Source: a virus
Length of the DNA: 21,341 nucleotides
Strand: one strand, 5' to 3'
Virus record (IMG/VR): IMGVR_UViG_3300044731_001710
Span: 1 to 21,341 of that record
Shown here one piece after another: positions 2,545 through 20,244 of the stretch. The notes below the pieces were generated by a model, which searched no databases, was not told the DNA's origin, and saw only the letters and a program-made list of their open reading frames with translations. Position 1 is the stretch's first letter. Every line of letters starts with the position of its first letter. A program made the position numbers and the translations under genes.

Positions 2545-3171
2545 TTAAAAATCTTGGTCTATTTCGCCTAATTTTTTTTGTATTAATTTTTTTGCTTTAG
2601 GTCTGAGTTCCCCATTAGGGGACACATAATCGTAAATAGTAGTAGATTTAATGCCTACTTGTTGGCCTATTTCTGAGACTGTTAAATTTTTATCTTTTAT
2701 TAGAGCCATCAATGTTTTTAATTTGGGAATCGTCATTTTAAAAGGAGCACCACCGAACCTACCCCTAGCCCTTGCGGCTTTGAGTCCTGCATTTACTCTT
2801 TCTATCATTAACGCCCTTTCAAATTCTGCCAACGAAGCAAAAACCGTAAACAAAAACTTGCCGTGTGGCGTGGTGGTATCAACTGGTGCCCCTGTTAAAA
2901 CTTTTAGGCTGATTTCTCTTTTATTTAAATCGTTTATAAGCTGGATGAGGTGTTGCAAGTTGCGGCCTAGTCTATCCAAACTATAAACTATCAATATGTC
3001 TCCAGCTCTAAGAGCTTTAAGGCAAGCATTCAAGCCTACTCTGTCCGCTTTTGACCCAGAAACTTTATCTTCGTATATGTTTTCAACGCTTACTCCTGCA
3101 CCTCTTAAAGCATCTAGTTGTAAATCTAAATTTTGATCGGTTGTGCTTACTCTCATGTAGCCTATTAACAT
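2545..3171 (-). CDS. Serine recombinase, Hin/Gin/Pin invertase-resolvase family
   Basis: This 208-residue protein has the full small serine recombinase architecture. The N-terminal catalytic domain starts MLIGYMRVS, with nucleophile Ser9 and Arg7; the active-site SLDRLGR lies at about 64-70; the E-helix FERALMIERVNAGLKAARARG follows at about 117-137; a C-terminal HTH (TVSEIGQQVGIKSTTIYDYV) binds DNA. Length and motifs match functional enzymes. Such enzymes invert tail-fibre cassettes in Mu, P1 and related phages or resolve transposons. It sits directly after the tape-measure gene, where baseplate and fibre genes would be expected. I see no convincing gix/hix-like crossover site in the window, so its substrate is unknown. 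GC content appears higher than in the flanking genes. Confidence 0.92.
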   Translation of the reverse strand: MLIGYMRVSTTDQNLDLQLDALRGAGVSVENIYEDKVSGSKADRVGLNACLKALRAGDILIVYSLDRLGRNLQHLIQLINDLNKREISLKVLTGAPVDTTTPHGKFLFTVFASLAEFERALMIERVNAGLKAARARGRFGGAPFKMTIPKLKTLMALIKDKNLTVSEIGQQVGIKSTTIYDYVSPNGELRPKAKKLIQKKLGEIDQDF

Positions 3172-3320
3172 AGCAAAAATCCTTTCGCTAAACTTGGCAA
3201 TTAACGGAATTTAAAAACAGGTTAAAAAGTCTCGGAAAGCTCTATAAAATCTTTCGTTAACTCATCGGTAATCAAATTTTTTTAAACTGTCAAATTTTAT
3301 GATTAATGAAAGAAAAGAGG

Positions 3321-5897
3321 CTAATCGAATGGGCTGGCTCTGCCAAGATTAAGACCCATAAAAACATTTGAGCTTTCTGATTTGGCAATTGCAGTTGTTC
3401 CATAGGGAGCGTTTAAATCGATCTGGATTTTACCGCTAACTTCGCTAGGTGCGGCTTTCTGGCTTATTGGAGGAATATTTATATTTTGGGGTTGGAACTT
3501 AAAGCTATGTGGCTCTATTCGATTTTTAAAATCAAGGCCTTTTAAGGGATTTTCAATAATGGGGGAAGCCACTTTTTGAGATACCACGGGAGCCATTGGA
3601 GCCGCTAAACTTGGCATAGTCATATTTGCAAATAAGGGTTGGATAGGCTCAATTTTAGGCAAAAACGATTGCCCCATTGATAAATTGGGTAGCTTATCAG
3701 CCTTTTTTATGGCTCCCATAGGAGCATCAATAACATCTTTAAAATTAGATAAATCGAGCTGTGGCTTTATTGTTTGCGTAGGAATTGGGAAGCTATTATA
3801 AGCCACTTTATCAGGTTGCTGTTGGGCTTTTGGCTTGGTTTCAATTCCTAACATTCTCTGGAAATTTTCAAAAGCTTCTCTTAGATAGTCAATAACAGGC
3901 TGAATTTTATCAAGAAGACCTTGAAAAACCGTCGTTAAACCTTCTTTAATATCTAAAATGTACTGTAAAAATCCAGCTTTAGGATTATCCCAAATATTGC
4001 CTAATGTTGTAGAAATCCAATTAAAAACGCTTTTTATAACCTGCCATATATTTTTAAATGATGATGTTAAATAATCATAGTAACTAGTAAACCCAAGCTT
4101 TAAATCGTCCCAAACACCGCAAAAAATGCCTTTCATCCAATCATAAAATTTTATAAATTCAACTAAAGCTACGTTTAAACCTAGTTTAATATCATCCCAA
4201 TATTTTATCGTTACCCAAGATAAACCAGCAATAACGGCAGCAATAGCCATTACAGTTAAACCTATGGGGTTAGCTACTGCCAAAGCTCCTACAAATTTAA
4301 ATGCTGTGCCTATAGCCATTAATGCTTTAAATGCTGCCCCACCAAATAAAATAAAACTTCCCTTGATAGCTAACAAAGAAAATTTAAGGCCACCTAAAAC
4401 AGCCCCTACCGTTAGAATAGCTGAGGATATCCCTGTAAATGCTCCTAAAATAATGCCACCAAAGGAAACCAATTGTCCTATCCATGGGAATTCGACTACT
4501 AAATTCTCAAACTTCGTAATTAATTGTGATAGCTTAGCAAAAGTTTCAGACAAAACATCTAAAAGCCCTGAATTTACAAAAGTGATTTTCAAATTTTCGA
4601 AAGAAGCTTGAAAAGTATCAACTTTGTTTTTGTAACTATCCGCTACCAATTTATATTTATTGTCTAAAACCCCATCGGAATTAGATAAATTATCGGCAGA
4701 TTTCAGCCAGTCGCCTTTTCCTTTGTTACCAAAAGTTACAGTGGCGTGTATGCCCTCTTTCCCAAATAATTTAGTGCTGTGAGCCATGAAGATTTCACTA
4801 GGAAGCGATTCCTTCGCTTTTTGGAAGGTTTCAATAATATATTTCATATCAAATTGACCTTTGATATCAGTCAATTTACTCATATCGAAGCCTAGTCCTC
4901 GTGCCGCTTGTACTTTCTCATTTTCGCCTTTTTTACTTGGTTTTAAATCAATTCCTGCTTTTTCGTATTGTTCTCTTAATGCAGGATTAGCTTTGACCAT
5001 ATTTTTAAAATCGTTGGATTGTGTACGGGCTTCTAACAGTCCAAACATAAAATTCTTTGAAGCTGTAGCCACTTCTGAGCCTTCTATGTCGTTATTACCT
5101 GCACTTGTGATAAAGCTAGCGGCCTGTTCCTTACTAAGCCCCATCAGCTTTGCAATGGGTGCAATAGCCTTCATAGATTGTAAAACGTTTTCTAAGTTAG
5201 CCCCTGACGCAATCTCAAGCTTATGTAAGAATCCCCCTATTTTGGAGTAGTCGAATTCTTCAAACGTATTTGCAACCCCTGATAAAGTCCCTATGCTATT
5301 TAACGGATCAGTTTTTTGAATAGAAAGTTTCGATTGTTGAATAGCAACTTTTGAAATGCTCACAAGCTGGCCTACATCTTCAACACCTTTTCTTGCCGCT
5401 TCACGCATAACTTTTGAAATTTCGGGAAGCCCTACACCCATTTGTTGAGAAAGTTTCTTCGCTTCAATTTCTAAAAGATTTTTAGCACCCGAATTTAAAT
5501 TCGCTGATTCCGCTATAATGTCCACATTTAATTTATAGTCACTTGCCCCATCAAGACCGCTTGTAATTGCAGATGTTAATTTATTACCTAAATCATTAAG
5601 AGGCTGTATATAATCATTGAAGCCATTTTTTAAATCTTTTAAATTAGATCTAAAATCAGAAAACATATTTTTAAACGTGTTCTTAGTTTTAGACCCCATT
5701 ATATCAAGATTAGTACCGAGTTTATTAAAGCCACCGCCTAAATTTTGGAGTTCTTTTCCCAAATTACTTAGCTCATTCATGTTACCGATGTTTTTAATCG
5801 AGTTTGCTATTTGGGAAAAATCCTTTTGAAGCTTGTCGAAGTCACTAGAAAAAGAGTCAATGGTGCTTAATTCTATTTTTAAAGGAATAGTCGTCAT
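3321..5897 (-). CDS. Phage tail tape measure protein
   Basis: The 858-residue protein sets tail length and helps DNA passage. The N-terminal third is helical and Asn/Leu-rich; the middle carries the conserved tape-measure core. Hydrophobic segments at about 480-570 (FGGIILGAFTGISSAILTVG and following) are typical. After them come Trp-containing repeats (YWDDIKLG, VWDDLKLGF, IWDNPKAGF) seen in many tape measures, then a Pro-rich tail. The frame runs back to 5945, but the ATG at 5897 fits best: it overlaps by ATGA the stop of the -1 frame extension of the chaperone, as in lambda-type G-T/H coupling, and it begins with a typical MTTIPLKIEL start. Downstream there are 149 bp and then the recombinase gene. 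Confidence 0.9.
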   Translation of the reverse strand: MTTIPLKIELSTIDSFSSDFDKLQKDFSQIANSIKNIGNMNELSNLGKELQNLGGGFNKLGTNLDIMGSKTKNTFKNMFSDFRSNLKDLKNGFNDYIQPLNDLGNKLTSAITSGLDGASDYKLNVDIIAESANLNSGAKNLLEIEAKKLSQQMGVGLPEISKVMREAARKGVEDVGQLVSISKVAIQQSKLSIQKTDPLNSIGTLSGVANTFEEFDYSKIGGFLHKLEIASGANLENVLQSMKAIAPIAKLMGLSKEQAASFITSAGNNDIEGSEVATASKNFMFGLLEARTQSNDFKNMVKANPALREQYEKAGIDLKPSKKGENEKVQAARGLGFDMSKLTDIKGQFDMKYIIETFQKAKESLPSEIFMAHSTKLFGKEGIHATVTFGNKGKGDWLKSADNLSNSDGVLDNKYKLVADSYKNKVDTFQASFENLKITFVNSGLLDVLSETFAKLSQLITKFENLVVEFPWIGQLVSFGGIILGAFTGISSAILTVGAVLGGLKFSLLAIKGSFILFGGAAFKALMAIGTAFKFVGALAVANPIGLTVMAIAAVIAGLSWVTIKYWDDIKLGLNVALVEFIKFYDWMKGIFCGVWDDLKLGFTSYYDYLTSSFKNIWQVIKSVFNWISTTLGNIWDNPKAGFLQYILDIKEGLTTVFQGLLDKIQPVIDYLREAFENFQRMLGIETKPKAQQQPDKVAYNSFPIPTQTIKPQLDLSNFKDVIDAPMGAIKKADKLPNLSMGQSFLPKIEPIQPLFANMTMPSLAAPMAPVVSQKVASPIIENPLKGLDFKNRIEPHSFKFQPQNINIPPISQKAAPSEVSGKIQIDLNAPYGTTAIAKSESSNVFMGLNLGRASPFD

Positions 5898-8143: not shown

Positions 8144-8645
8144 TTTTATTATCCTTTTCTTCGTTATTTAATTGTATTTCTAATTTTGGTAATTTTAATT
8201 CTTCAACTTCTTCCCATGGAATAGGGTGGAACTCATAGTTAACAAGATAATTTAGAGTCATTATTTCACATAAACTCGAACTTATTTTTTCGTTTGTATC
8301 GTATTCCATGCCTTCATATTTTATCTTAAAATTGGGGGATATAAACGAGGCCATTTCATTTTCAATTAATTCTGCTATATCTTCTGCAAGCTCCCAACCA
8401 TCTAAATCATTAATGGGGTACTTATTAAAAATAAGAACCTTTAATAAAACATCTCTTTCTGTTCCATATGGGAAAATATCTTTAACCATTTTTTCAGGAA
8501 CACTTAAAATGCTTACAATTGGATAAGTTTCTTTATTATCAAAAGAATGTAAGTAATTTATTCGTAACTGAACTTTATTAAAGAGTTTTTTAAGATACTC
8601 AAAAATCTCTTTTTTTATTAATTTTCTTGTTACTTGAATTGTCAT
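8130..8645 (-). CDS. Tail terminator/completion-like protein
   Basis: The 171-residue protein lies between the FII-like head-tail connector and the sheath, the position of the tail terminator (lambda gpU-type) or Mu gp37-type protein. It reads PIVSILSVPEKMVKDIFPYG, then VLLKVLIFNK and a helix WELAEDIAELIENEM; the order strand, strand, helix with a dimer-like acidic helix fits the terminator fold, but sequence similarity is weak. The acidic tail ends EEKDNKNGFL. The frame opens at a GTG (8654), but ATG at 8645 is five bases after AGGTGA, which I prefer. It overlaps the previous gene by 47 bp. Confidence 0.6.
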   Translation of the reverse strand: MTIQVTRKLIKKEIFEYLKKLFNKVQLRINYLHSFDNKETYPIVSILSVPEKMVKDIFPYGTERDVLLKVLIFNKYPINDLDGWELAEDIAELIENEMASFISPNFKIKYEGMEYDTNEKISSSLCEIMTLNYLVNYEFHPIPWEEVEELKLPKLEIQLNNEEKDNKNGFL

Positions 8646-8958
8646 GATACTCACCTAGATAATATTTGATAAATCCTTGCAAAGTTTCTTGTGCTACAAC
8701 GCTATATTTCTTTTCTTTAATTTTAACAAAATTGACTTCTACTCTATCAAATTCATCTTTAGATTTTACACTGACCGTACAAAGGTAATCAGTAATACTT
8801 GCAATAGAGTTTTCTAAAGGGGTAAGTAACTTCTCCCCATAAATACCAGTCAATAAATTAAACCTATCGTCTTTAAATTGGACTAAAAGCGGCTCACCTA
8901 ATGTTCTGTTAATTATATTTGAAGCGTTTTCTACTAATGAATTAAAGTTTATTTTCAT
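8599..8958 (-). CDS. Head-tail connector, lambda FII-like
   Basis: The 119-residue protein follows the decoration protein and precedes the tail terminator-like gene. The length and beta-rich middle (LLVQFKDDRFNLLTGIYGEK and DRVEVNFVKIKEKKYSVVAQ) fit the lambda gpFII family: these proteins form a ring that receives the tail. The opening 'F..L...A...I....G' and a mid-protein G-Y/E-V turn are shared. Its start ATG (8958) overlaps the stop of the upstream gene by one base (TAATG), indicating translational coupling. The call rests on position plus weak pattern; a head completion protein of another type is possible. Confidence 0.6.
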   Translation of the reverse strand: MKINFNSLVENASNIINRTLGEPLLVQFKDDRFNLLTGIYGEKLLTPLENSIASITDYLCTVSVKSKDEFDRVEVNFVKIKEKKYSVVAQETLQGFIKYYLGEYHDNSSNKKINKKRDF

Positions 8959-9284
8959 TATATGAGAATCTCCGCTAATTCATTTTCACCGCTAGTTAGG
9001 GCATAACCAATTAAATTATTATTTTGAGTTGCTGATAATGTTCTAGCGGCAGTGTCCAAATATATCGGAGCACCTGCAACGAATTTTCCTGTCACTGCTA
9101 ATAAAAATTGGCCTTTAAAATCCACTGTAACATGCTCACCTTGTTTTGCGTTAGTTAACGGTACGTAAACTATTTTACCTAATAAATAGGGTTCATGTGC
9201 TTTTACATTTTCAGGAGCTGAAAAATATCCAGTTGTATATTCGCCAATTTTGCCAGTGTAATGTTTAGGTTTTTCTAAAGTCAT
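8958..9284 (-). CDS. DUF2190-type capsid decoration protein
   Basis: The 108-residue protein is a small beta-rich protein. The segments KIVYVPLTNAKQGEHVTVDF, GQFLLAVTGKFVAGAPIYLD and a final LIGYALTSGENELAEILI fit DUF2190/capsid-cement proteins, which stabilise the capsid shell as trimers. The 'G..I(V)...P...A..G' pattern and 'IGYAL..G....AEI.L' end are characteristic. It follows the capsid gene directly, as expected. ATG at 9284 has AAAGGA upstream. Its end overlaps the FII-like start by one base. Confidence 0.78.
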   Translation of the reverse strand: MTLEKPKHYTGKIGEYTTGYFSAPENVKAHEPYLLGKIVYVPLTNAKQGEHVTVDFKGQFLLAVTGKFVAGAPIYLDTAARTLSATQNNNLIGYALTSGENELAEILI

Positions 9285-9325: not shown

Positions 9326-11308
9326 TTATTTCCCAGGATTGTAAAAAACCCCTTTATAACTGGATATTGCAGCCGCAAAATCCAGTAACCCAATAAAGTC
9401 AATTGAAAGTGTATCGAAATTTTGTTGTTTCCTTAGTTGCGAACCTGTGGAACCTGCTAAATATGCGGTTTTGACTATGTCATATTGAATTGGATTAGCA
9501 GTCATGTACCAGCCATGAGGGTTGATACTATCTAAAGACGGGTCGACAATTAATTGGAATCTATTTGCGTATATATTGATGTCTTCAGCTTTATTTGCAT
9601 TGACAGAAGCAAGAGCACGGTAAGCTGAATTTTCTAAATTCTTTGGTACAATTAGCCAACACCCATATAAGCCTATTCGGTTACCATCTAATGCTACTTG
9701 TGCAGCTAAAGCATTGTCACCTTCCTCAAATGTTTTTGCGCTTGGAATGCCTTTGATGGCAGCTAGATTGCCGTGTTCTTTACAAAATACGGTGTGGCCA
9801 TCCGCCATTTTATAAGTAAGATCTGAAAACAAAGACATGATTATTTTCTTTTCAGTCATTGCCGCACCACGTCCAAACATTTTTGGAATTTCTTGCAATA
9901 ATCCTATTTCATCGCCTATGATTGCTTGACGAGTGATAGATAATTTCTTTTGAAAAGTGTCTAATTTAATAGAATTTTGAGTGTTGTTTGTGGAGTGTCC
10001 TTGCTTTGGTGGCGCACCTTCTGGCGTTTTTTCAAACTCGGTAAATATTGTCGTATCAACAAGATTAGTTGCTTTAAAGTCTGGTAACACCATGGGGCTA
10101 ATTAAAGGTTTATAGGGTTGCTCAATAAGTCCATAATTGAATTTTACGACTTTATTCACAACTGTATGAAGTGCATCTCCAAATAATGCCGAATTTATCC
10201 CACGTTCCGCAATTTCGTTTCTGTCGTATCCGCTTAAATCTCTATTTAAACATTTAATAGTATCAAGAAAGGAAATGCCACGATAATTTGCGCCTATTTC
10301 CTGTATTTCTTCGACACCAATACGAGCAGCAAGGGCATTTTCAATGCCTCGTTGCATATGTTTTATTTCACAGTGGTCTGTCCCATATACAGGTGCAGAG
10401 TGCGATTTAATTGGATTATTCTTTTCAAAATTTTCCATTGCGTATTGAGTAATAAGTTTTTTGCCATGTTGAATATCTAACGCATCAGTTAAAACATTAT
10501 GTGTTTGTTCTGTATTTAGAGAACGTTTTGCACATAGGACGCTTAAATCTGCATAAAAAACAGAACTCTTAGGTATGTCCGTAGTATTTGCGGAATTTAG
10601 AGAACGAGTTTCTGTTTTTATATCAGAAACGGCATTGCTTGATTCTATCGTCGTTGAATTATTAGCAACATTGTCATTCATAGAAGCTGTTATTGCTGGC
10701 TCGCTTGTTTTCATGGCACGGCCGATTTTATTTTTATAAAACATTGTATCTGTTTCTCCTTCAATTATTGTTTCGTTATAGGAATTGTTATCATCAGTTA
10801 ATGAACGAATATTTGCTTTATAATCCGCTGATACAGGGACTATTGAAATTTCAAATGGTTCTAATTTTGTGATTAATTTTGTTTTATATGCGTAGTTTTC
10901 TTTTTGTAGCCATTTTATAAGAAGTGTAAAATATCCCATGGAAATACTGGTAATAATTCCATCTTTTATATCTTGCCAAAGGTCATCTAATCCTGATCGT
11001 TTTGATAATCTAGCCGCTACATGTAACAAACCATTTTCGATCCATGCGTCTGTTGTACGGCCTAATATATGGGAAATATCATCCCGTTTGTGGTTATTAA
11101 GTAGGCTTGCTCCTGCCTTTAATCTATTTAAAACTACACTGTCATCAGAGATAACTAGCTCTTCAAAATAAGTAACTTCTTTACCATTTATTAATACAGT
11201 TCTTGGAGTTTCTGCACCTGTTGAAGCAATTAATATAAAGGATCTATCTTCATCTTTTGTGCTTTCAGGCTTTAATTTAAAACAAGATTCTAAAACGGAT
11301 ATTGTCAT
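9326..11308 (-). CDS. Prohead protease / major capsid protein fusion
   Basis: A single 660-residue protein combines two roles normally on separate genes. Residues 1-190 are an HK97/S78-like prohead protease: LLNNHKRDDISHILGR carries His73, TSISMGY carries Ser123, and EPFEISIVPVSADYKA lies downstream. Residues about 195-250 form an Asn/Ser/Thr-rich linker, possibly scaffold-like. From about 340 to the end is a major capsid domain (GVEEIQEIGANYRGISFLDT and following, ending YKGVFYNPGK). The protease would cut itself off during maturation. ATG at 11308 overlaps the portal stop by ATGA and GGAGGT lies just upstream. No separate capsid gene exists elsewhere in the window, so the fusion is very likely the functional form. 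Confidence 0.88.
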   Translation of the reverse strand: MTISVLESCFKLKPESTKDEDRSFILIASTGAETPRTVLINGKEVTYFEELVISDDSVVLNRLKAGASLLNNHKRDDISHILGRTTDAWIENGLLHVAARLSKRSGLDDLWQDIKDGIITSISMGYFTLLIKWLQKENYAYKTKLITKLEPFEISIVPVSADYKANIRSLTDDNNSYNETIIEGETDTMFYKNKIGRAMKTSEPAITASMNDNVANNSTTIESSNAVSDIKTETRSLNSANTTDIPKSSVFYADLSVLCAKRSLNTEQTHNVLTDALDIQHGKKLITQYAMENFEKNNPIKSHSAPVYGTDHCEIKHMQRGIENALAARIGVEEIQEIGANYRGISFLDTIKCLNRDLSGYDRNEIAERGINSALFGDALHTVVNKVVKFNYGLIEQPYKPLISPMVLPDFKATNLVDTTIFTEFEKTPEGAPPKQGHSTNNTQNSIKLDTFQKKLSITRQAIIGDEIGLLQEIPKMFGRGAAMTEKKIIMSLFSDLTYKMADGHTVFCKEHGNLAAIKGIPSAKTFEEGDNALAAQVALDGNRIGLYGCWLIVPKNLENSAYRALASVNANKAEDINIYANRFQLIVDPSLDSINPHGWYMTANPIQYDIVKTAYLAGSTGSQLRKQQNFDTLSIDFIGLLDFAAAISSYKGVFYNPGK

Positions 11309-12645
11309 TTATTACCTCCTATTTTTTTATTTTTATTATCCGTTTTATTTTTTAATGGGGTATTTAAAACTTGTTCAGACGAGGTATAGCCATCTTCTCT
11401 TCTAATTTCTTCCACTGTTTTTAATTGATGTTGCAAAGCGAGGACATGCGCTTTCACGTCTTTTAATGTGTCGATACTTTCTCGCTTCGGAGCTGTCCAA
11501 ATTGCTTTTATTTTTTCAACTTCAAATTTTGGATAATGATAGTTAACTCCCTCGGCAAACCATTTAACAATGGGGTCGCACATCTGAGGGATAATTGTAT
11601 TTTCTCTCCACGCATCTACATTTTTGTAGTACTCTACCAGCCCAACACGGGCAGAACTAAAATTAACTTCAGATAGATCAGACGTTAATAATTCATACGG
11701 CATGCTGATAGCTGCGGCTATTTTCTTTAAAGTAACGCTTACAAATTCTGCATAACCTAAAACATTGGGTGGAGTGGGAAAAGTAACGGTTTTTCCTGCT
11801 GGCAGATATTCTATCGTACCTGCGCCCATTGTCTCACCTTCTAAATGCCGAGGATTGTCTTTTTCGGCAATTTGGCTTCCGCCTTGGATGTCATGCACGA
11901 AAGCCGAAAAACAGCTTGCTACACGCCTTCTAATGAGTTCCGAAGTTTGATAATCATCAAGATGTTTTAAATCGAGCATAGCAGGTGTAAGCGTTGGGAT
12001 TCCTCTAATCTGCCCAGCTCGTTCTATTTTTATTAATTGCAACATCTCAGTGGCAGGAATAAAACTCGATTCGGCCGTGTTATGGCTATGCTTAACCATG
12101 AAGCCTAGCCGCCTACCACGTGGATTTACAACAACACCTTGAACGATTTGCCCCATTGGGGAGGTTGTTTGATTTAAACTCTCATCTACTAACTCTGCCT
12201 CTATAAGGCCAATTTCAAAACCTAATAAGTTATCCGCTGGATACCAGCGAAGAAACGCATCACCGCCAGCCGCTACCTCCCGACAAGCTAGGGATTGGAG
12301 GCCGTAAAGATTTAGCATGCCATCGGCACTTACATTTGCGCTTTTTGCCCATTCGTCCCATAGCTCTTGCAGGAATCTATTCTTTTTATTTCCATAATAA
12401 ATATCTGCCAGTATCCCACCACCAACCACGTTATTTTGGATGGATGACATGGCTTTGGAAGGATAGCCGCTATCGTCCACCAGTTGGCGGCTTCTAGCCC
12501 TTAGAGTACTCAAATTATATGCAAGTTTATGATTAATCCCATGTGTATCTAATGCAAGCCAATTTTGATGGCGTGCGCTTCTGCTAGCCGCTGCAAACGA
12601 CCTTGTGTTGATTTCCCATTGATAATAGACATTATCTTGGATCAT
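11305..12645 (-). CDS. Phage portal protein, lambda family
   Basis: The 446-residue protein forms the dodecameric gateway for DNA at the capsid vertex. It reads AAASRSARHQNWLALDTHGI near the start, then ARSRQLVDDSGYPSKAMSSI and NVVGGGI, then REVAAGGDAFLRW. These are the lambda-type portal signatures (lambda gpB family). Later comes RGIPTLTPAMLDLKHLDDYQ and the FSSARVGLVEYYKN region of the wing/crown. It is somewhat shorter than lambda gpB because the C-terminal part is trimmed. The start ATG (12645) overlaps gpW by 14 bp. A C-terminal Lys-rich tail (DNKNKKIGGNK) ends it. Confidence 0.9.
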   Translation of the reverse strand: MIQDNVYYQWEINTRSFAAASRSARHQNWLALDTHGINHKLAYNLSTLRARSRQLVDDSGYPSKAMSSIQNNVVGGGILADIYYGNKKNRFLQELWDEWAKSANVSADGMLNLYGLQSLACREVAAGGDAFLRWYPADNLLGFEIGLIEAELVDESLNQTTSPMGQIVQGVVVNPRGRRLGFMVKHSHNTAESSFIPATEMLQLIKIERAGQIRGIPTLTPAMLDLKHLDDYQTSELIRRRVASCFSAFVHDIQGGSQIAEKDNPRHLEGETMGAGTIEYLPAGKTVTFPTPPNVLGYAEFVSVTLKKIAAAISMPYELLTSDLSEVNFSSARVGLVEYYKNVDAWRENTIIPQMCDPIVKWFAEGVNYHYPKFEVEKIKAIWTAPKRESIDTLKDVKAHVLALQHQLKTVEEIRREDGYTSSEQVLNTPLKNKTDNKNKKIGGNK

Positions 12646-12844
12646 AAATCATTACTCGCCTGTTTGGTCTGTTCCTATTTAATGAATTAATTTTTGTAAT
12701 TAAAATATCCCGTGCATTTAATAGTTCGCTTGTTGTTTTAAAATGAACTTCTTTACCATCAAATTTAACAATTTTTACATTGCTAAATATGGCTTCCTCA
12801 ACGGCTTCCAATTGCTCCATTAATTTTGATCTGTTTTCTGACAC
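12632..12844 (-). CDS. gpW-like head-tail joining protein
   Basis: The 70-residue protein begins the minus-strand structural operon and precedes the portal gene, as gpW does in lambda. It has the gpW pattern: an N-terminal helix (KLMEQLEAVEEAIFS) followed by VKIVKFDGKEVHFKT, a Ser/Glu-rich loop and a helix with a basic C-terminus (RNRPNRRVMIYDPR). The start is a GTG at 12844 preceded by GAGGGGG, inside one arm of the large dyad. The protein would plug the portal channel during DNA retention. Small size limits certainty, but the context is strong. Confidence 0.78.
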   Translation of the reverse strand: MSENRSKLMEQLEAVEEAIFSNVKIVKFDGKEVHFKTTSELLNARDILITKINSLNRNRPNRRVMIYDPR

Positions 12845-12857
12845 GGTTTCACCCCCT

Positions 12858-12962
12858 CAAAATTTTAAAAAATCACGTAGCCAATTGATTCGCTTAGTTT
12901 TTTTAAATCCGATTTAAAAAGTCCAACCCTTTCAATTAGGTACGTGCTTTCTTAAAATTTTG
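12858..12962. repeat. 105 bp interrupted palindrome; divergent control region
   Basis: A 31 bp element lies in opposite orientation at 12858-12888 and 12932-12962. The copies agree at 27 of 31 positions; shared cores are TCAATT, TACGTG and TTAAAATTTTG. Inside them 9 bp perfect arms TTTTTAAAT/ATTTAAAAA (12900-12908 and 12912-12920) flank CCG. Both pairs share one centre, base 12910, though the bases between them (12889-12899, 12921-12931) do not match. Each element ends at the Shine-Dalgarno of its outward gene: gpW on the left and endolysin on the right. This is therefore the shared 5' control region of both late operons. No strong -35/-10 pair is visible, so an activator-dependent promoter or an mRNA leader element is possible. 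Confidence 0.75.
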
Positions 12963-12974
12963 GAGGTTTTGAAG

Positions 12975-13490
12975 ATGAGCAGATTAAACGAGTTTTTAAA
13001 CATTTTGGACAAAGTGGAAGGGAGACATAGCAATGATCCTCGTGATAGGGGAGGGGAAACTTTTAGAGGGATTACCCAAAAAACATACAATAATTTTTGT
13101 AAAAAAATGGGTATTCCTATTAAACCTGTCAGCTCATTATCTGACGAAGAAGTTAAATATTTTTATCAAGAAGAAATTTTTAAGAACTGTCGCTTTAATG
13201 AGCGAATAGAAATTCATTATAATTATTTTGATTGTTTAGTTAATGGGGGTAGTTATGGTCACAAAAAAATAACTGAATATATGAATGCAAAAATATTAGA
13301 AAGACCCATGACAGAATCAGAAATTTTAGAAACCCTCTATGACTTTAGATTAAAACAATTCAAAAAAATAGCTGAAATATATTACAAAACTACCTCAATA
13401 AATGAATACCCATTAAAAGGTTGGATAAACCGCATATCTAAAATAAGGGCGTATTTCAATAATAAAAAAAGGATAACAAATGGAAAATAA
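12975..13490 (+). CDS. Endolysin, GH108-type N-acetylmuramidase
   Basis: The 171-residue protein degrades peptidoglycan at the end of the lytic cycle. It carries the GH108 signature VEGRHSNDPRDRGGETFRGI with catalytic Glu15 in the EG motif, and continues with the GH108-like FYQEEIF and YFDCLVNGG segments, ending in a GW.NR motif (GWINRISKIR). It has no signal sequence, so it needs a holin. The frame also opens at a TTG at 12960, but ATG at 12975 has GGAGG (12962-12966) at the proper distance and is preferred. It overlaps the next gene by 11 bp, giving a lysis cassette. Confidence 0.9.
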   Translation: MSRLNEFLNILDKVEGRHSNDPRDRGGETFRGITQKTYNNFCKKMGIPIKPVSSLSDEEVKYFYQEEIFKNCRFNERIEIHYNYFDCLVNGGSYGHKKITEYMNAKILERPMTESEILETLYDFRLKQFKKIAEIYYKTTSINEYPLKGWINRISKIRAYFNNKKRITNGK

Positions 13491-13857
13491 TTCAAGCCCC
13501 CCAAATAATAAATCACAGGATAATGCCAATACAATGACTGAAAGATTGGTCAATAAAGTTACTGAAGGTTTCACAGGCTCAGGCGCACCTTATGTTTTTG
13601 GTACTGTGGTTTTGATTACAGTTTTTGTATTTGTGGGCTATGTAGCTAAAGATATAAACAATGGAGTTTTAGCTAAAATAGATGATATTTATAAAGAGCA
13701 AAAACAAGCAAATATTAATTCTGAAAAGATTCAAGTGAAACTTGAATCGAATCAAAGGGACTTATTGAATCTTAAAGAACAACAATTGAAAATTGAGAGA
13801 CTTCAAGCAGAACAAGAGAAACGTCTATACCGTATAGAATCAAAGAAGAACTATTAA
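13480..13857 (+). CDS. Holin- or inner-spanin-like membrane protein
   Basis: The 125-residue protein has one clear membrane segment at about residues 38-58 (YVFGTVVLITVFVFVGYVAK). A hydrophilic N-terminus of 30 residues precedes it, and a long charged helical region (about 66-122) likely to form a coiled coil follows. One transmembrane segment plus a coiled coil fits either a type III-like holin or an inner-membrane spanin. Directly following the endolysin and overlapping it by 11 bp supports a lysis role. RBS AAAGGATAA lies just before the ATG. No lipoprotein outer spanin is visible in other frames. Confidence 0.65.
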   Translation: MENNSSPPNNKSQDNANTMTERLVNKVTEGFTGSGAPYVFGTVVLITVFVFVGYVAKDINNGVLAKIDDIYKEQKQANINSEKIQVKLESNQRDLLNLKEQQLKIERLQAEQEKRLYRIESKKNY

Positions 13858-14499: not shown

Positions 14500-14877
14500 A
14501 TGAAAAAATCTAATTTAATTTATACAATAATAACATTAACAATTATGGTAATTAGTGGATTTACTTTTTACCCTCTTTATAAAGTTTGGCAGCAAGAAAA
14601 AGAAGGAGAAGCAGAATTAGCACGAGCAACATCAAATAGGAAAATTAAAATCCTTGAAGCAGAAGCAAAAAAAGAAGCTGCAATTTCAGAAGCTCTTGCA
14701 GAAATAGAACGGGCTAAAGGTGTAGCTAAAGCAAACGAAATTATAGGCAGCTCATTAAAAAATAATGAGAGTTATTTACGTTATCTTTGGATATCAAATT
14801 TAAATGGGAATAATAAAGAAGTGATTTATATTCCTACAGAAGCAAATTTACCCATACTAGAAGCAGGCAAAAGATAA
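14500..14877 (+). CDS. Small membrane protein resembling the tail of SPFH/stomatin proteins
   Basis: The 125-residue protein has an N-terminal membrane segment at about residues 7-27 (IYTIITLTIMVISGFTFYPL). It is followed by a helical region rich in Glu/Ala/Lys (EAELARATSNRKIKILEAEA and IERAKGVAKANEIIGSSLKN), and then YLRYLWISNL and IYIPTEANLPILEAG. The Ala/Glu helix with 'ANEIIG.SL..NE.YLRYLWI' and the 'VIYIPTEANLPI' end resemble the C-terminal region of stomatin/prohibitin family proteins, but the SPFH domain is absent. Similar small phage proteins are known to me. Function is not established. It starts four bases after the GNAT gene stop with no strong RBS, so coupled translation is likely. 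Confidence 0.65.
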   Translation: MKKSNLIYTIITLTIMVISGFTFYPLYKVWQQEKEGEAELARATSNRKIKILEAEAKKEAAISEALAEIERAKGVAKANEIIGSSLKNNESYLRYLWISNLNGNNKEVIYIPTEANLPILEAGKR

Positions 14878-14887
14878 ATAAAAATTC

Positions 14888-15247
14888 TTAATCTTTCTTT
14901 ATTGCCTTTCTCCAAGTTTTAAGCTGGACATACCCAATCACATCATTTTCATTATCAAGTTTTGGTTTTAAAATTACAGGTATTTGTAAATCAACTATTA
15001 ATTTTTTTGTATACCTAAGCTCAGTCCCCAATATTCTAGCAACATCTTTATATTTCAAATTATCGCTATCAAAACTAGGATGAGTTTTTAGAAAATTAAT
15101 CTTATAATTTTTATCTTTTTTTCTAATCATTGAATCGTACATGTTCAAATTTCTGAGAGCGTTGTTTGCATAATTTTCAGGGTTTTCAAGCCCCAAATGT
15201 TTAGCTATATTTAAAAATCGCTCTCTTGTTTTTTCACCTTCAGACAT
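14888..15247 (-). CDS. Small protein with possible C-terminal DNA-binding domain
   Basis: The 119-residue protein is not recognised as a known family. Its last 57 residues (from about LKYKDVARILG) contain a helix-turn-helix-like pattern with L.IP and a final K.W....KD. The same pattern occurs in the 74-residue protein at 20020-20244. The N-terminal half is helical and basic. It lies on the opposite strand to the surrounding genes and 42 bp downstream of the 28-codon gene, so both are probably expressed from the strong promoter at 15429-15457. A small regulator is the likeliest role. Its 3' end is 10 bp from the end of the converging SPFH-like gene. Confidence 0.6.
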   Translation of the reverse strand: MSEGEKTRERFLNIAKHLGLENPENYANNALRNLNMYDSMIRKKDKNYKINFLKTHPSFDSDNLKYKDVARILGTELRYTKKLIVDLQIPVILKPKLDNENDVIGYVQLKTWRKAIKKD

Positions 15248-16689: not shown

Positions 16690-17382
16690 ATGACTTCTAT
16701 TTTAATAAATGCCACAAACCTTGCTAAAGAAATGGGAGTCAGCAAACCCTACATATCTAAACTAATTGCTCAAAAAAGATTAGATTTTGCAAAAAACGTT
16801 GATAGTAAAGGAAAAGTTTTATATGACTTAACTCAGGTTTTAAAAGTTTTTTCAAAAAAAAATACAAATAATTTAGATGACAGTAAAAAAGAAAATGATA
16901 TTAATGAAAAAATTAACAAAAATTCTAATGACACTTATTCAAACAATCGTAACAATAATATTTCTAGTTTCAATACTTATAACAATAAGCATCGTGCTAG
17001 GTCTAGCAATGGCTCTAATTTCCATGTTCGCACGCCCGTAAATAATACAGAAAACAATAACAATTCTGATTTAAGATATGACTTTGAGAAAACAAAAAAA
17101 ATGGCTTTAGACGTTAAGAGAACACGTTTAAAGCTTTTGCAAGAGAAAAAAAGTTTAATTAGTTCGGAAGAAGTTGAAAAAGAAGCATTTGAAATAGGTA
17201 GAAAAGTTAGAATACAATTGATGTTAATTCCCCAAAGGGTTTGCAATCTTTATTCCAGTTTTACAGAACCCCATACAATTAAAACACATTTAACTAAAGA
17301 GTTAACAAATGTTTTGAATATTTTAAATCTACCTGAAGAGAAGGAAACAGAAAAAGTAACAGGTGATATAGATGGGGTATAG
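16690..17382 (+). CDS. terS: Terminase small subunit, lambda Nu1-like
   Basis: The 230-residue protein recognises the packaging site. Its N-terminus holds an HTH (ILINATNLAKEMGVSKPYIS) as in Nu1. The middle (about 55-125) is a low-complexity, Asn-rich segment (repeats of NN, NNNN) unlike typical Nu1. The C-terminal third has VEKEAFEIGRKVRIQLMLIP, then RVCNLYSS.TEPHTIKTHL, which matches the terminase small subunit consensus (EAFE.GR.VR.....IP.R). It overlaps TerL by 11 bp, with AGGTGA of TerL inside its 3' end, so the two are translated together. Confidence 0.85.
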   Translation: MTSILINATNLAKEMGVSKPYISKLIAQKRLDFAKNVDSKGKVLYDLTQVLKVFSKKNTNNLDDSKKENDINEKINKNSNDTYSNNRNNNISSFNTYNNKHRARSSNGSNFHVRTPVNNTENNNNSDLRYDFEKTKKMALDVKRTRLKLLQEKKSLISSEEVEKEAFEIGRKVRIQLMLIPQRVCNLYSSFTEPHTIKTHLTKELTNVLNILNLPEEKETEKVTGDIDGV

Positions 17383-19237
17383 AGACGCTTTTCTTCGTGG
17401 AATAAAGCCAATTGAACAAATTGACTTGCCTGAATGGTGCGAAAAGTATGTAAAACTTTCTTCTAAATCTTCAGCCGAGGCAGGTAATTACAGTGTGGAG
17501 CGTGTGGAATATTTGAGAGAGCCAATGAAGTTATTAAGCTTAAGCTCGCCTTTTCAGATTGTAACTTTAATGAAGGGGGTACAATTAGGGCTATCTACAT
17601 TTGCAAACAACTTGTTAGCTTATTATGCAGATTTAGACCCATGCCCTTTATTGCTTGTTATGCCTAATCAAGAGTTGGTGGAGGGATTTAGTAAGAACAG
17701 ATTTACGCCTTTGCTAGATGAGATTCCAAAGATTAAAGATAAATTTAAAGCTGCTCGTTCTCAAGCTGGCGGTAACACTACTTTAATGAAAGAATATGAG
17801 GGCGGTGTTTTATACTTTGCAGGTGGAAATAGTTCTGCTGGATTATGCTCTAATCCAGTAAGAATTCTCGTTCTTGATGACGTTGATCGCATGCCTCGGA
17901 ATCTTGACGGAGAAGGTTCGCCTATAAAATTAGCTTCTGCAAGAACCTCTACATTTTCCAATAAAAAAATATTTATCAATAGTACGCCCACGGACGCAAA
18001 AACAAGTTTAATTTATAAAAGTTACTTAGAAGGAGACCAACGAAAGTTTCATGTACCCTGTCCCCATTGTGAGCATTTTCAAGAACTCTTAATCGGTCAA
18101 TTAAAATGGGAAGAAGATAATTTTGAGTCTGTAAAATATGAATGTATCCAATGTAAAAATTTATTTTCTGAAATTGATAAAATAAATATTATTCCTCGTG
18201 GCAAATGGATTCCTACCGCTAAAAGCAAAGACCCTAATCATGCAAGTTTTCATATTAGCTCAATGTATGCGCCAATAGGTTGGAAAAGTTGGGCAGATAT
18301 TGCAAGGCAAATTGAAGCGGCCGCTTTTGATGAAAATGCAAAAATTAGTTTGATAAACCTAGAAGCTGGTTTGCCTGTCGAAGAAACAGGAGAAATATTT
18401 GACTTTGAAAAGATATACAATAGACGTGAATATTACCCACAAAATATAGTCCCTAAAGGGGCATGCCTTTTAACCTGTGGGGCTGATGTTCAGCATGATA
18501 GAATTGAATTAGAAGTTGTGGCTTGGGGAAAAAACAGGGAAAGCTGGAGTATTTGTTACAGGACTTTACTAGGGGACACTTCACAAGCTGAGGTGTGGGA
18601 TGAGTTAAGAAAAGTAACAAATGAGTTATTTCCTGTAGCAGATAGTGACGCTGTGTTACCTATTGAAAGAATGGGCATTGACTGCTCAGATGGGAATCGG
18701 TCAAATTTTATTTATAACTTTTGTAGAACTCACGAGCGATTTAATCAAGTCATTCCCGTTAAAGGAACGTCTACACGTGGCACAAAAGGAATGTGTTCTA
18801 CAATTGATGTAAAAGAAAAAAATAGCAATGGATTTTATTTAGGTAAAACAATTAAAGTTTTATCTGTGCAAGTTGATAAGTTTAAGACTGAATTTTATGG
18901 TAATTTAAACAGACGAATTGAAGACGGCAAAACCCCAATTGCTTATTGCCATTTTCCAGATTATCCAGAATATTATTTTAAAATGTTATGTTCCGAGACG
19001 TATTATAATAATCATTGGAAGAAAACTTTTACAAGAAATGAAGCTTTAGACTGCCGAATTTATGCAAGAGCAGTGGCATACGATTTGGGGATTGACACAT
19101 ATTCAGAGCAAAAATGGCAAGAGCTAAATGACCGAATTTATGCAAAAAAACCTAAAATTAAAATTGAACCTAAAAAACGTGAAAGAGAACGTGACCCATT
19201 ATTGGAAAACTGGAATCGTTCTTTAAGAGATTTTTAG
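17372..19237 (+). CDS. terL: Terminase large subunit, lambda GpA family
   Basis: The 621-residue protein is the ATP-driven DNA packaging motor and nuclease. It has a variant Walker A region (LMKGVQLGLST, about 66-76), a Walker B VLDDVDRM (167-174), a CPHC...CIQC zinc-ribbon with Cys230, 233, 258 and 261, and a nuclease domain starting with LTCGADVQHDRIELEVVAWG. The latter contains Asp372 (GADVQ). Near the end is RNEALDCRIYARAVAYDLGI. Length and order fit the GpA family (lambda gpA has 641). Start ATG 17372, overlapping TerS, has AGGTGA upstream. The orientation is opposite to gpW and the portal. Confidence 0.93.
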   Translation: MGYRDAFLRGIKPIEQIDLPEWCEKYVKLSSKSSAEAGNYSVERVEYLREPMKLLSLSSPFQIVTLMKGVQLGLSTFANNLLAYYADLDPCPLLLVMPNQELVEGFSKNRFTPLLDEIPKIKDKFKAARSQAGGNTTLMKEYEGGVLYFAGGNSSAGLCSNPVRILVLDDVDRMPRNLDGEGSPIKLASARTSTFSNKKIFINSTPTDAKTSLIYKSYLEGDQRKFHVPCPHCEHFQELLIGQLKWEEDNFESVKYECIQCKNLFSEIDKINIIPRGKWIPTAKSKDPNHASFHISSMYAPIGWKSWADIARQIEAAAFDENAKISLINLEAGLPVEETGEIFDFEKIYNRREYYPQNIVPKGACLLTCGADVQHDRIELEVVAWGKNRESWSICYRTLLGDTSQAEVWDELRKVTNELFPVADSDAVLPIERMGIDCSDGNRSNFIYNFCRTHERFNQVIPVKGTSTRGTKGMCSTIDVKEKNSNGFYLGKTIKVLSVQVDKFKTEFYGNLNRRIEDGKTPIAYCHFPDYPEYYFKMLCSETYYNNHWKKTFTRNEALDCRIYARAVAYDLGIDTYSEQKWQELNDRIYAKKPKIKIEPKKRERERDPLLENWNRSLRDF

Positions 19238-19354
19238 CATGCTTTAGTTTTTATAAATTATTTTACTTCGTTTTAGAAAAAAAATTTTTCTGGTGACTTG
19301 CCTTCAGCTTCCGAATCCTTTACTCATTGCATATGCTCTGTCCTAAATTTAAAG

Positions 19355-19384
19355 TTGAGGTTTTTGTTACTGCAAAAACCTCAA
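19355..19384. terminator. Hairpin after the TerL gene, possible terminator
   Basis: TTGAGGTTTTTG (19355-19366) and CAAAAACCTCAA (19373-19384) form a perfect 12 bp stem with a 6-base loop. It is 118 bp after the TerL stop. The following bases, TATTATTTACTC, are AT-rich but not a clean T-run, so termination is plausible but not certain; a protein-binding dyad is the alternative. Confidence 0.45.
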
Positions 19385-19505
19385 TATTATTTACTCTTGC
19401 AACAAGATGTTGTTACAAAATACTTTTTCAACAAAAAATGTTTGGTTATTAGGCAAAGCATAACAATGCCGATAAATTTATTTTCATTTAGATTTTTTTG
19501 CTTGT

Positions 19506-19576: not shown

Positions 19577-20023
19577 ATGAGAACATTTTTACCTAAATTA
19601 CCCGATCATTTATACTATTTAAGCTCTATTCACAAAGCATGTGAAAACGAAACTTTTGATAATTGGCTTGAAGTTTTTGAAAATACGGTAATTAAAGCAA
19701 TTTTAGAAAAAGAGAGTGGTTTTACAGAAACAGAAGCAAAAGAACTGTTTGATAATACGGAACAACACGCAATTAATTTTGTAAATTTATTAGCTAGATT
19801 TCTTTGTGAACAGCAAGCAGGAAATAAATACTGGAACGAGCAAGAATGGCTTATCTATTTAAAACCAGTTGAAGATACACTTGCAAAAGAAGCACGATCA
19901 AGAGCGGAAAAACATTTAGCAGATATCCCAAAAATTATAGAAAAAAAGACAGCAATAAATTCTAGACCTGAATATAACTTAGAAATAAAAGATAACTTGG
20001 TACGATTAAAAAAGATTAATTAA
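19577..20023 (+). CDS. Hypothetical protein, 148 aa
   Basis: I do not recognise this protein. It is 148 residues, largely helical and acidic in the first two thirds (ENETFDNWLEVFENTVIKAI), and more basic at the C-terminus (RLKKIN). No membrane segment or cysteine motif. ATG 19577 is the first start after a good promoter and is preceded by an A/G-rich stretch (AAAAAAAGAACAG) that may act as RBS. It converges with the small HTH gene and overlaps its stop by 4 bp. Position between terminase and recombination genes fits a phage accessory or early gene. Confidence 0.6.
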   Translation: MRTFLPKLPDHLYYLSSIHKACENETFDNWLEVFENTVIKAILEKESGFTETEAKELFDNTEQHAINFVNLLARFLCEQQAGNKYWNEQEWLIYLKPVEDTLAKEARSRAEKHLADIPKIIEKKTAINSRPEYNLEIKDNLVRLKKIN

Positions 20024-20244
20024 TCTTTGTAAGTTTCTTTCCATTCTTTTATTAAATAAATTCGCTGTTCCCCATATCTGCAAGGTTCAACTCTTGACGG
20101 TATTTTTAACTCACTTGCTGCTAATCTAGCTGTTATTTTTGTGCATTTTAAAACTTCCGCAAGCTCTGATGTTTTTAGTTCATCTTTGTCACACTCTTTT
20201 AAAATTTTTGCTCGTTGCATCTTTAATGCCTCTTTAAATCCCAT
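20020..20244 (-). CDS. Small helix-turn-helix DNA-binding protein
   Basis: The 74-residue protein has a predicted HTH in LKTSELAEVLKCTKITARLA, followed by ASELKIPSRVEP and a C-terminal IYLIKEWKETYKD. This is the size and form of small phage regulators or excisionase-like proteins. It is encoded downstream of bet, 43 bp away, with GGGGAG before ATG 20244, so co-transcription with bet is likely. A perfect 18 bp palindrome (20264-20281) lies in the gap. The final L.IP and K.W....KD pattern is shared with the 119-residue protein at 14888-15247. Its target is not known; the palindrome is one candidate. Confidence 0.65.
   Translation of the reverse strand: MGFKEALKMQRAKILKECDKDELKTSELAEVLKCTKITARLAASELKIPSRVEPCRYGEQRIYLIKEWKETYKD

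Follow-up and report, generated by a model that had tools for sequence, protein, structure and literature searches.

The window analysed here is the whole stretch of 21,341 nucleotides of the IMG/VR virus record IMGVR_UViG_3300044731_001710 (positions 1 to 21,341). Within it, head genes and lysis genes face away from each other across an intergenic region occupied by a long imperfect palindrome. Leftward of the palindrome, gpW is followed by the portal, capsid, sheath and tape-measure genes. Rightward lie the GH108 endolysin, a small ORF having a relative in phage W8red 2, a GNAT gene and an SPFH-like fragment, past which come an ORF on the minus strand, two conserved ORFs, terS and terL. A terminator-like, bidirectional hairpin is found 3′ of terL at 19354–19385. 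The genes and the palindromic features are as follows.

11305–12645, minus strand: portal protein, lambda family (PF05136, 1e-76)
12632–12844, minus strand: gpW / head-tail adaptor Ad1, with which the head operon begins (phrog_2545, 8.4e-9)
12975–13490, plus strand: endolysin, glycosyl hydrolase 108 (GH108), first gene of the lysis side (PF05838, 8.4e-16)
17372–19237, plus strand: terminase large subunit, terL (PF05876/PF20454), on the strand opposite to gpW and portal
12858–12962, no strand: whole imperfect palindrome, two ungapped 52-nt arms about 12910, 41/52 paired
12900–12920, no strand: central dyad TTTTTAAATC-C-GATTTAAAAA with 10/10 perfect arms, candidate shared regulator site
12858–12888, minus strand: left 31-bp element TCAATTGGCTACGTGATTTTTTAAAATTTTG, which may serve the head operon as core promoter
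12932–12962, plus strand: right 31-bp element TCAATTAGGTACGTGCTTTCTTAAAATTTTG, 27/31 identical to the left one, which may serve the lysis operon as core promoter in the same way as the left element would the head operon
12857–12852, minus strand: gpW Shine-Dalgarno (SD) AGGGGG, with the gpW GTG at 12844
12962–12966, plus strand: endolysin SD GGAGG, with the endolysin ATG at 12975

Several other genes were noted along the way. The protein of 125 aa encoded at 14500–14877 (plus strand) matches phrog_11227 and apparently corresponds to the C-terminus of an SPFH/prohibitin-like protein, and L029 47–793 resembles a longer version of it. On the minus strand, 1693–2380 is taken up by a type II toxin-antitoxin pair with the toxin first, the RelE-like toxin gene (2012–2380) overlapping the MqsA/HTH_3-type antitoxin gene (1693–2049). 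A serine resolvase (2545–3171, minus strand), ~57% identical to the TniC/TinR resolvases of plasmid transposons, is located beside phage tail genes, which is unusual; no further transposon part was identified there. In the sister contig of this phage (L026), a lipoprotein-like ORF with collagen-like G-x-D/G-x-N repeats lies at 2608–3405, beyond recT.

The arms of the inverted repeat (12858–12909 and 12911–12962) are 52 nt long, 79% complementary and separated by a spacer of 1 nt in an AT-rich region. Read from the centre outward, the left arm consists of GATTTAAAAA AACTAAGCGAA TCAATTGGCTACGTGATTTTTTAAAATTTTG and the right arm of GATTTAAAAA GTCCAACCCTT TCAATTAGGTACGTGCTTTCTTAAAATTTTG. The arms agree at 10/10 positions in the inner block, 4/11 in the middle one and 27/31 in the outer one, 41/52 in total. 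A sequence-only reading of this DNA had described two inverted 31-bp elements, 27 of 31 positions identical, and two 9-bp inner arms, all sharing a centre at 12910. The arm alignment confirmed the counts and coordinates of the elements as well as the single centre, both arm pairs being parts of one ungapped inverted repeat. The inner arms do exist and share this centre, but their length had to be corrected, as they are 10 bp each without a mismatch (12900–12909 and 12911–12920). The central dyad is its own sole match in the window at ≤3 mismatches. Both outer elements terminate in TTTTG, at 12962 on the plus strand and at 12858 on the minus strand, and each meets the SD of its gene, as the same reading had stated, 12–13 nt ahead of the start codon.

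The dyad is far beyond chance. Among 200 dinucleotide-shuffled versions of the window, the best dyad of the same size reached 33/52, and among 5000 shuffled versions of the intergenic region 30/52. The runner-up of the window itself reached 30/52, and the best one among 96 further loci, which total 1.05 Mb and come mostly from related phages, reached 36/52. The pattern CAATTNNNTACGTGNTTTNTTAAAATTTTG, which was built from the two element copies themselves, was found twice against an expectation of 0.00, and only at the two element sites. An assembly chimera or a fold-back artefact was rejected because the arms would then be identical, but they differ at 11/52 positions (21%). In addition, a second IMG/VR contig, IMGVR_UViG_3300044647_002327, overlaps the window, has different ends and carries the identical palindrome. 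It should be noted that a 36/52 dyad in W8red 2 (L008 15896–16000) is formed by two inverted copies of TTAGTTTGTACACGGTGTACA upstream of a parA-like gene. As a pair of parS-like sites, it was set aside as unrelated to the palindrome studied here; the pair suggests that W8red 2 is a plasmid-like prophage.

The 31-bp element was searched for at ≤3 mismatches, and no other copy was found in the window, W8red 1, W8red 2 or the further records searched. The sister contig contains no copy besides the shared pair, so that the whole phage of ~26 kb has two, against the many copies by which the promoters of single-subunit phage RNA polymerases are recognised. Upstream of 21 other starts in the phage, nothing rose above chance after counting tests, and a general late promoter with more copies was rejected on these grounds. 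The scan of IMG/VR returned the sister contig and two matches inside coding sequence, with no other non-coding copy. These two element-like matches, in L021 and L022, were attributed to chance. A mobile palindromic repeat (MITE/REP-like) was also rejected, as the IMG/VR scan gave no further non-coding copies beyond this phage. Since further copies are missing, the element is neither a mobile repeat nor a demonstrated genome-wide late promoter. No Rfam family matched the window at gathering scores.

The gene order was compared with that of the relatives in which terL or portal genes were detected. The nearest of them is Proteobacteria phage MWH-Nonnen-W8red 2 of Silvanigrella (portal 43%, TerL 47%). 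The portal, sheath, terL, 16053 ORF and lysin proteins were queried against viral_contigs and the portal against genome_contigs; all protein relatives other than the sister contig are ≤48% identical and are collinear wherever the genes are present. At the DNA level, 12601–13500 had no blastn match among 50,697 phage records. In W8red 2, terL, gpW and portal follow in that order on the same strand, circular continuity being assumed, as the record ends meet between gpW and portal. One strand carries terL and, downstream of it, gpW and/or portal in W8red 2, WO, PY223, L010, L029 and L032, and the terL–portal order is common to Wolbachia WO, Bordetella PY223, L010, L012, L013, L015, L029, L031, L032 and others. 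Among the relatives compared, the window phage is the only one in which the lysis genes and terL face away from gpW. Flipping the endolysin-to-terL segment of the window regains the common order, and from this synteny we infer that the palindrome sits on the junction of a lineage-specific inversion. The fold-back junction offered by the sequence-only reading can thus be kept as a possible evolutionary origin, the relatives with terL, gpW and portal on one strand pointing to a lineage-specific rearrangement.

Two side observations were made in the records compared. In L029, a relative of 28% GC, a DprA-like gene, named by eye, lies between terL and gpW (8253–9110). In W8red 1 (L023), a block with identical ORFs and masked stretches occurs at both 22917–25296 and 31979–34358, possibly as an assembly duplication.

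Each arm of the palindrome contains a hexamer resembling a −10 box near its outer edge.

12953–12958, plus strand: −10-like TAAAAT (5/6 to TATAAT), right arm, predicted start at 12963–12967
12862–12867, minus strand: −10-like TAAAAT (5/6), left arm, where TTAAAAT begins at 12868, predicted start at 12857–12853

At the normal spacing of 16–18 bp, no −35 better than 3/6 was found in either arm; the sigma-70 matches are weak and the intergenic region contains no 9/12 site. We give an even chance to the reading that the palindrome is a divergent late promoter region in which two inverted core promoters are arranged about one shared dyad. It is most likely a known type of divergent promoter in a new, unusually symmetric form. 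According to this model, a single late core promoter would be present in two inverted copies, each ending at the SD of its own gene. The TAAAAT of each arm would serve as the −10, and RNA would start 5–9 nt past it, at or just inside the SD, where the homology of the arms stops. A dimeric regulator would bind the central 21-bp dyad, the centre of which precedes each of the two predicted starts by ~53–57 bp, and would influence the two operons to the same degree. As a good −35 is missing, this regulator would have to be an activator.

The mismatches between the arms bear on this model. If there were two functional blocks, the inner 10 and the outer 31 positions would be expected to be kept and the middle 11 to have diverged. 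Seven mismatches fall into the middle 11 (permutation p 0.012), and this clustering, modest in effect and tested post hoc, mildly favours functional inner and outer blocks. The proposal of the sequence-only reading that a symmetrical activator site coordinates head and lysis expression is partly supported, as it fits the anatomy and has a precedent in phage P2. Three points speak against the preferred model. The leader would be only ~8–13 nt long with RNA beginning in the SD, which is unusual. The element is found upstream of no other operon of this phage. Finally, none of the relatives searched carries even one copy of it, so that no conservation supports its function.

The candidates for the regulator were sought among the encoded proteins. 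The Ogr/delta zinc-finger activator (PF04606, Ogr_Delta) had no match in G000, G001, W8red 2 and the L029 record, in a search in which the E. coli control was positive and the records were partial. The phage RNA polymerase profile (PF00940), searched without a positive control, had no match in the partial records, and sigma r4 gave nothing over the cut-off. Three small proteins are alike at 20–26% identity: those encoded at 14888–15247 (minus strand) and 20020–20244 (minus strand) of the window and at 3977–4273 of L026. Two of the three were modelled and showed a winged-helix secondary structure with moderate confidence; their matches in the PDB were weak, many of them being DNA-binding regulators. 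With weak fold matches and no link to the site, these proteins were not accepted as the established regulator of the dyad, and they may be regarded as candidates only.

The layout was also compared with known divergent promoters. In the annotated P2 record, the divergent starts at 3016 and 3127 are 111 bp apart, and a single activator site (3057–3087) serves both pO and pP; the midpoint, 3071.5, is 55.5 bp from each start. Both phages thus have divergent late operons including head genes, and in P2 the one activator site lies midway. The annotated spacing of P2 falls within the ~106–114 bp predicted here, a fit that holds if TAAAAT is the −10. However, the intergenic region of P2 has no long palindrome, as 20/60 positions are paired around its midpoint, which is the chance level, and it does not contain the inverted-copy core promoters proposed for the window phage. 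P2 has an Ogr/delta activator, whereas no Ogr_Delta protein was found in the two partial contigs of the window phage. The latter also has no TGT-N12-ACA on either strand of 12845–12975, a strict pattern that missed the annotated P2 site as well. Furthermore, the window phage is unrelated to P2, possesses a lambda-type portal and a GpA terminase, and differs in operon content, with lysis and terminase genes on one side.

In the P2-like phage Smp131, pP′ and pO′, its divergent late promoters, are attributed to a single 18-bp site that is read in either orientation (PMC3931495). This assignment is a prediction, and the passages on it mention no inverted core promoters (PMC3931495). The Ogr motif of Smp131 is absent in the window phage. 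The bacterial bidirectional promoters of Warman et al. also combine pseudo-symmetric DNA with divergent transcription; they share a single −10, and their starts are usually ~18 bp apart (range ~10–23), whereas the best −10-like hexamers of the window phage are ~85 bp apart, at the outer edges (PMC12825309). The layout itself is known from phage P2, and the unusual symmetry is what is new.

A bidirectional promoter could also lie at the centre of the palindrome, which we consider rather unlikely. It would have inward −35s in the arms (candidates TTGATT at 12885–12890, plus strand, and TTGAAA at 12935–12930, minus strand), overlapping −10s at the centre and starts near 12920 and 12900. The outer 31-bp elements would then be 5′ leaders acting as translation enhancers or regulator sites, a role that seems equally doubtful. 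Full leaders of ~55 nt with intact SDs would escape the short-leader weakness of the preferred model. TTGAAA-17-TCGGAT is the best minus-strand pair (8/12) and is mirrored on the plus strand by TTGATT-17-TCCGAT, and bacteria commonly have bidirectional promoters whose starts are separated by ~18 bp (PMC12825309). However, the central −10 hexamers match at only 3/6 positions and have no A at position 2, no 9/12 site is present here either, and the folds of the leader RNAs are unremarkable against shuffles (z 0.70 and −1.71).

Improbable to a similar degree, in our estimate, is that the palindrome is an evolutionary scar, left by a fold-back duplication at the inversion breakpoint that copied the endolysin leader before gpW, without a shared regulator. 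The one gapless centre over 105 bp, the lineage-specific inversion at the same place and a weak gapped similarity in the 60 nt that follow the SDs (p 0.043) are consistent with such an origin. Yet the mismatches are clustered and not even, within 30 nt of the SD the continuing similarity falls short of significance (p 0.15), and the other breakpoint, after terL, contains no remnant or copy of the palindrome centre (best 15/21). A scar is in any case compatible with a present role as a promoter.

It is very unlikely that the palindrome matters for DNA structure and not for transcription, be it as cos/pac, a replication origin, a protelomerase target or a mobile palindromic element. The single-stranded DNA folds well (−20.4 kcal/mol, z −5.97) and is AT-rich, but each end of the palindrome falls on an SD, terS is 3.8 kb distant, an odd-numbered centre and no protelomerase seen speak against a hairpin telomere, and a mobile repeat would not agree with the lack of a second copy in the phage or, coding matches aside, in IMG/VR.

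Returning to the divergent late promoter, the lysis-to-terL inversion likely deprived gpW of its upstream operon, and gpW would have gained its promoter either when the lysis promoter was copied in inverted orientation or when the inversion brought a second late promoter. The arms may accordingly derive from the inverted duplication of one promoter or from two late promoters joined back to back. It is conceivable, with a small probability, that one inverted duplication during the lysis–terminase inversion divided a collinear late operon and at the same time duplicated its promoter. This would be the birth of a promoter by fold-back, with the entire control region formed at once and the palindrome then kept by selection on the dyad of a shared non-Ogr activator.

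If the preferred model is true, the general view of phage regulation would stay unchanged, and the P2 layout, in which a single regulator site is placed halfway between two divergent late operons, would be seen a second time in an unrelated phage. The symmetry would here extend to the core promoters, in a group of phages that has received little study and has a Silvanigrella phage as its nearest named relative. The phage would also offer a readable example of how head and lysis genes are kept in step after the inversion of an operon.
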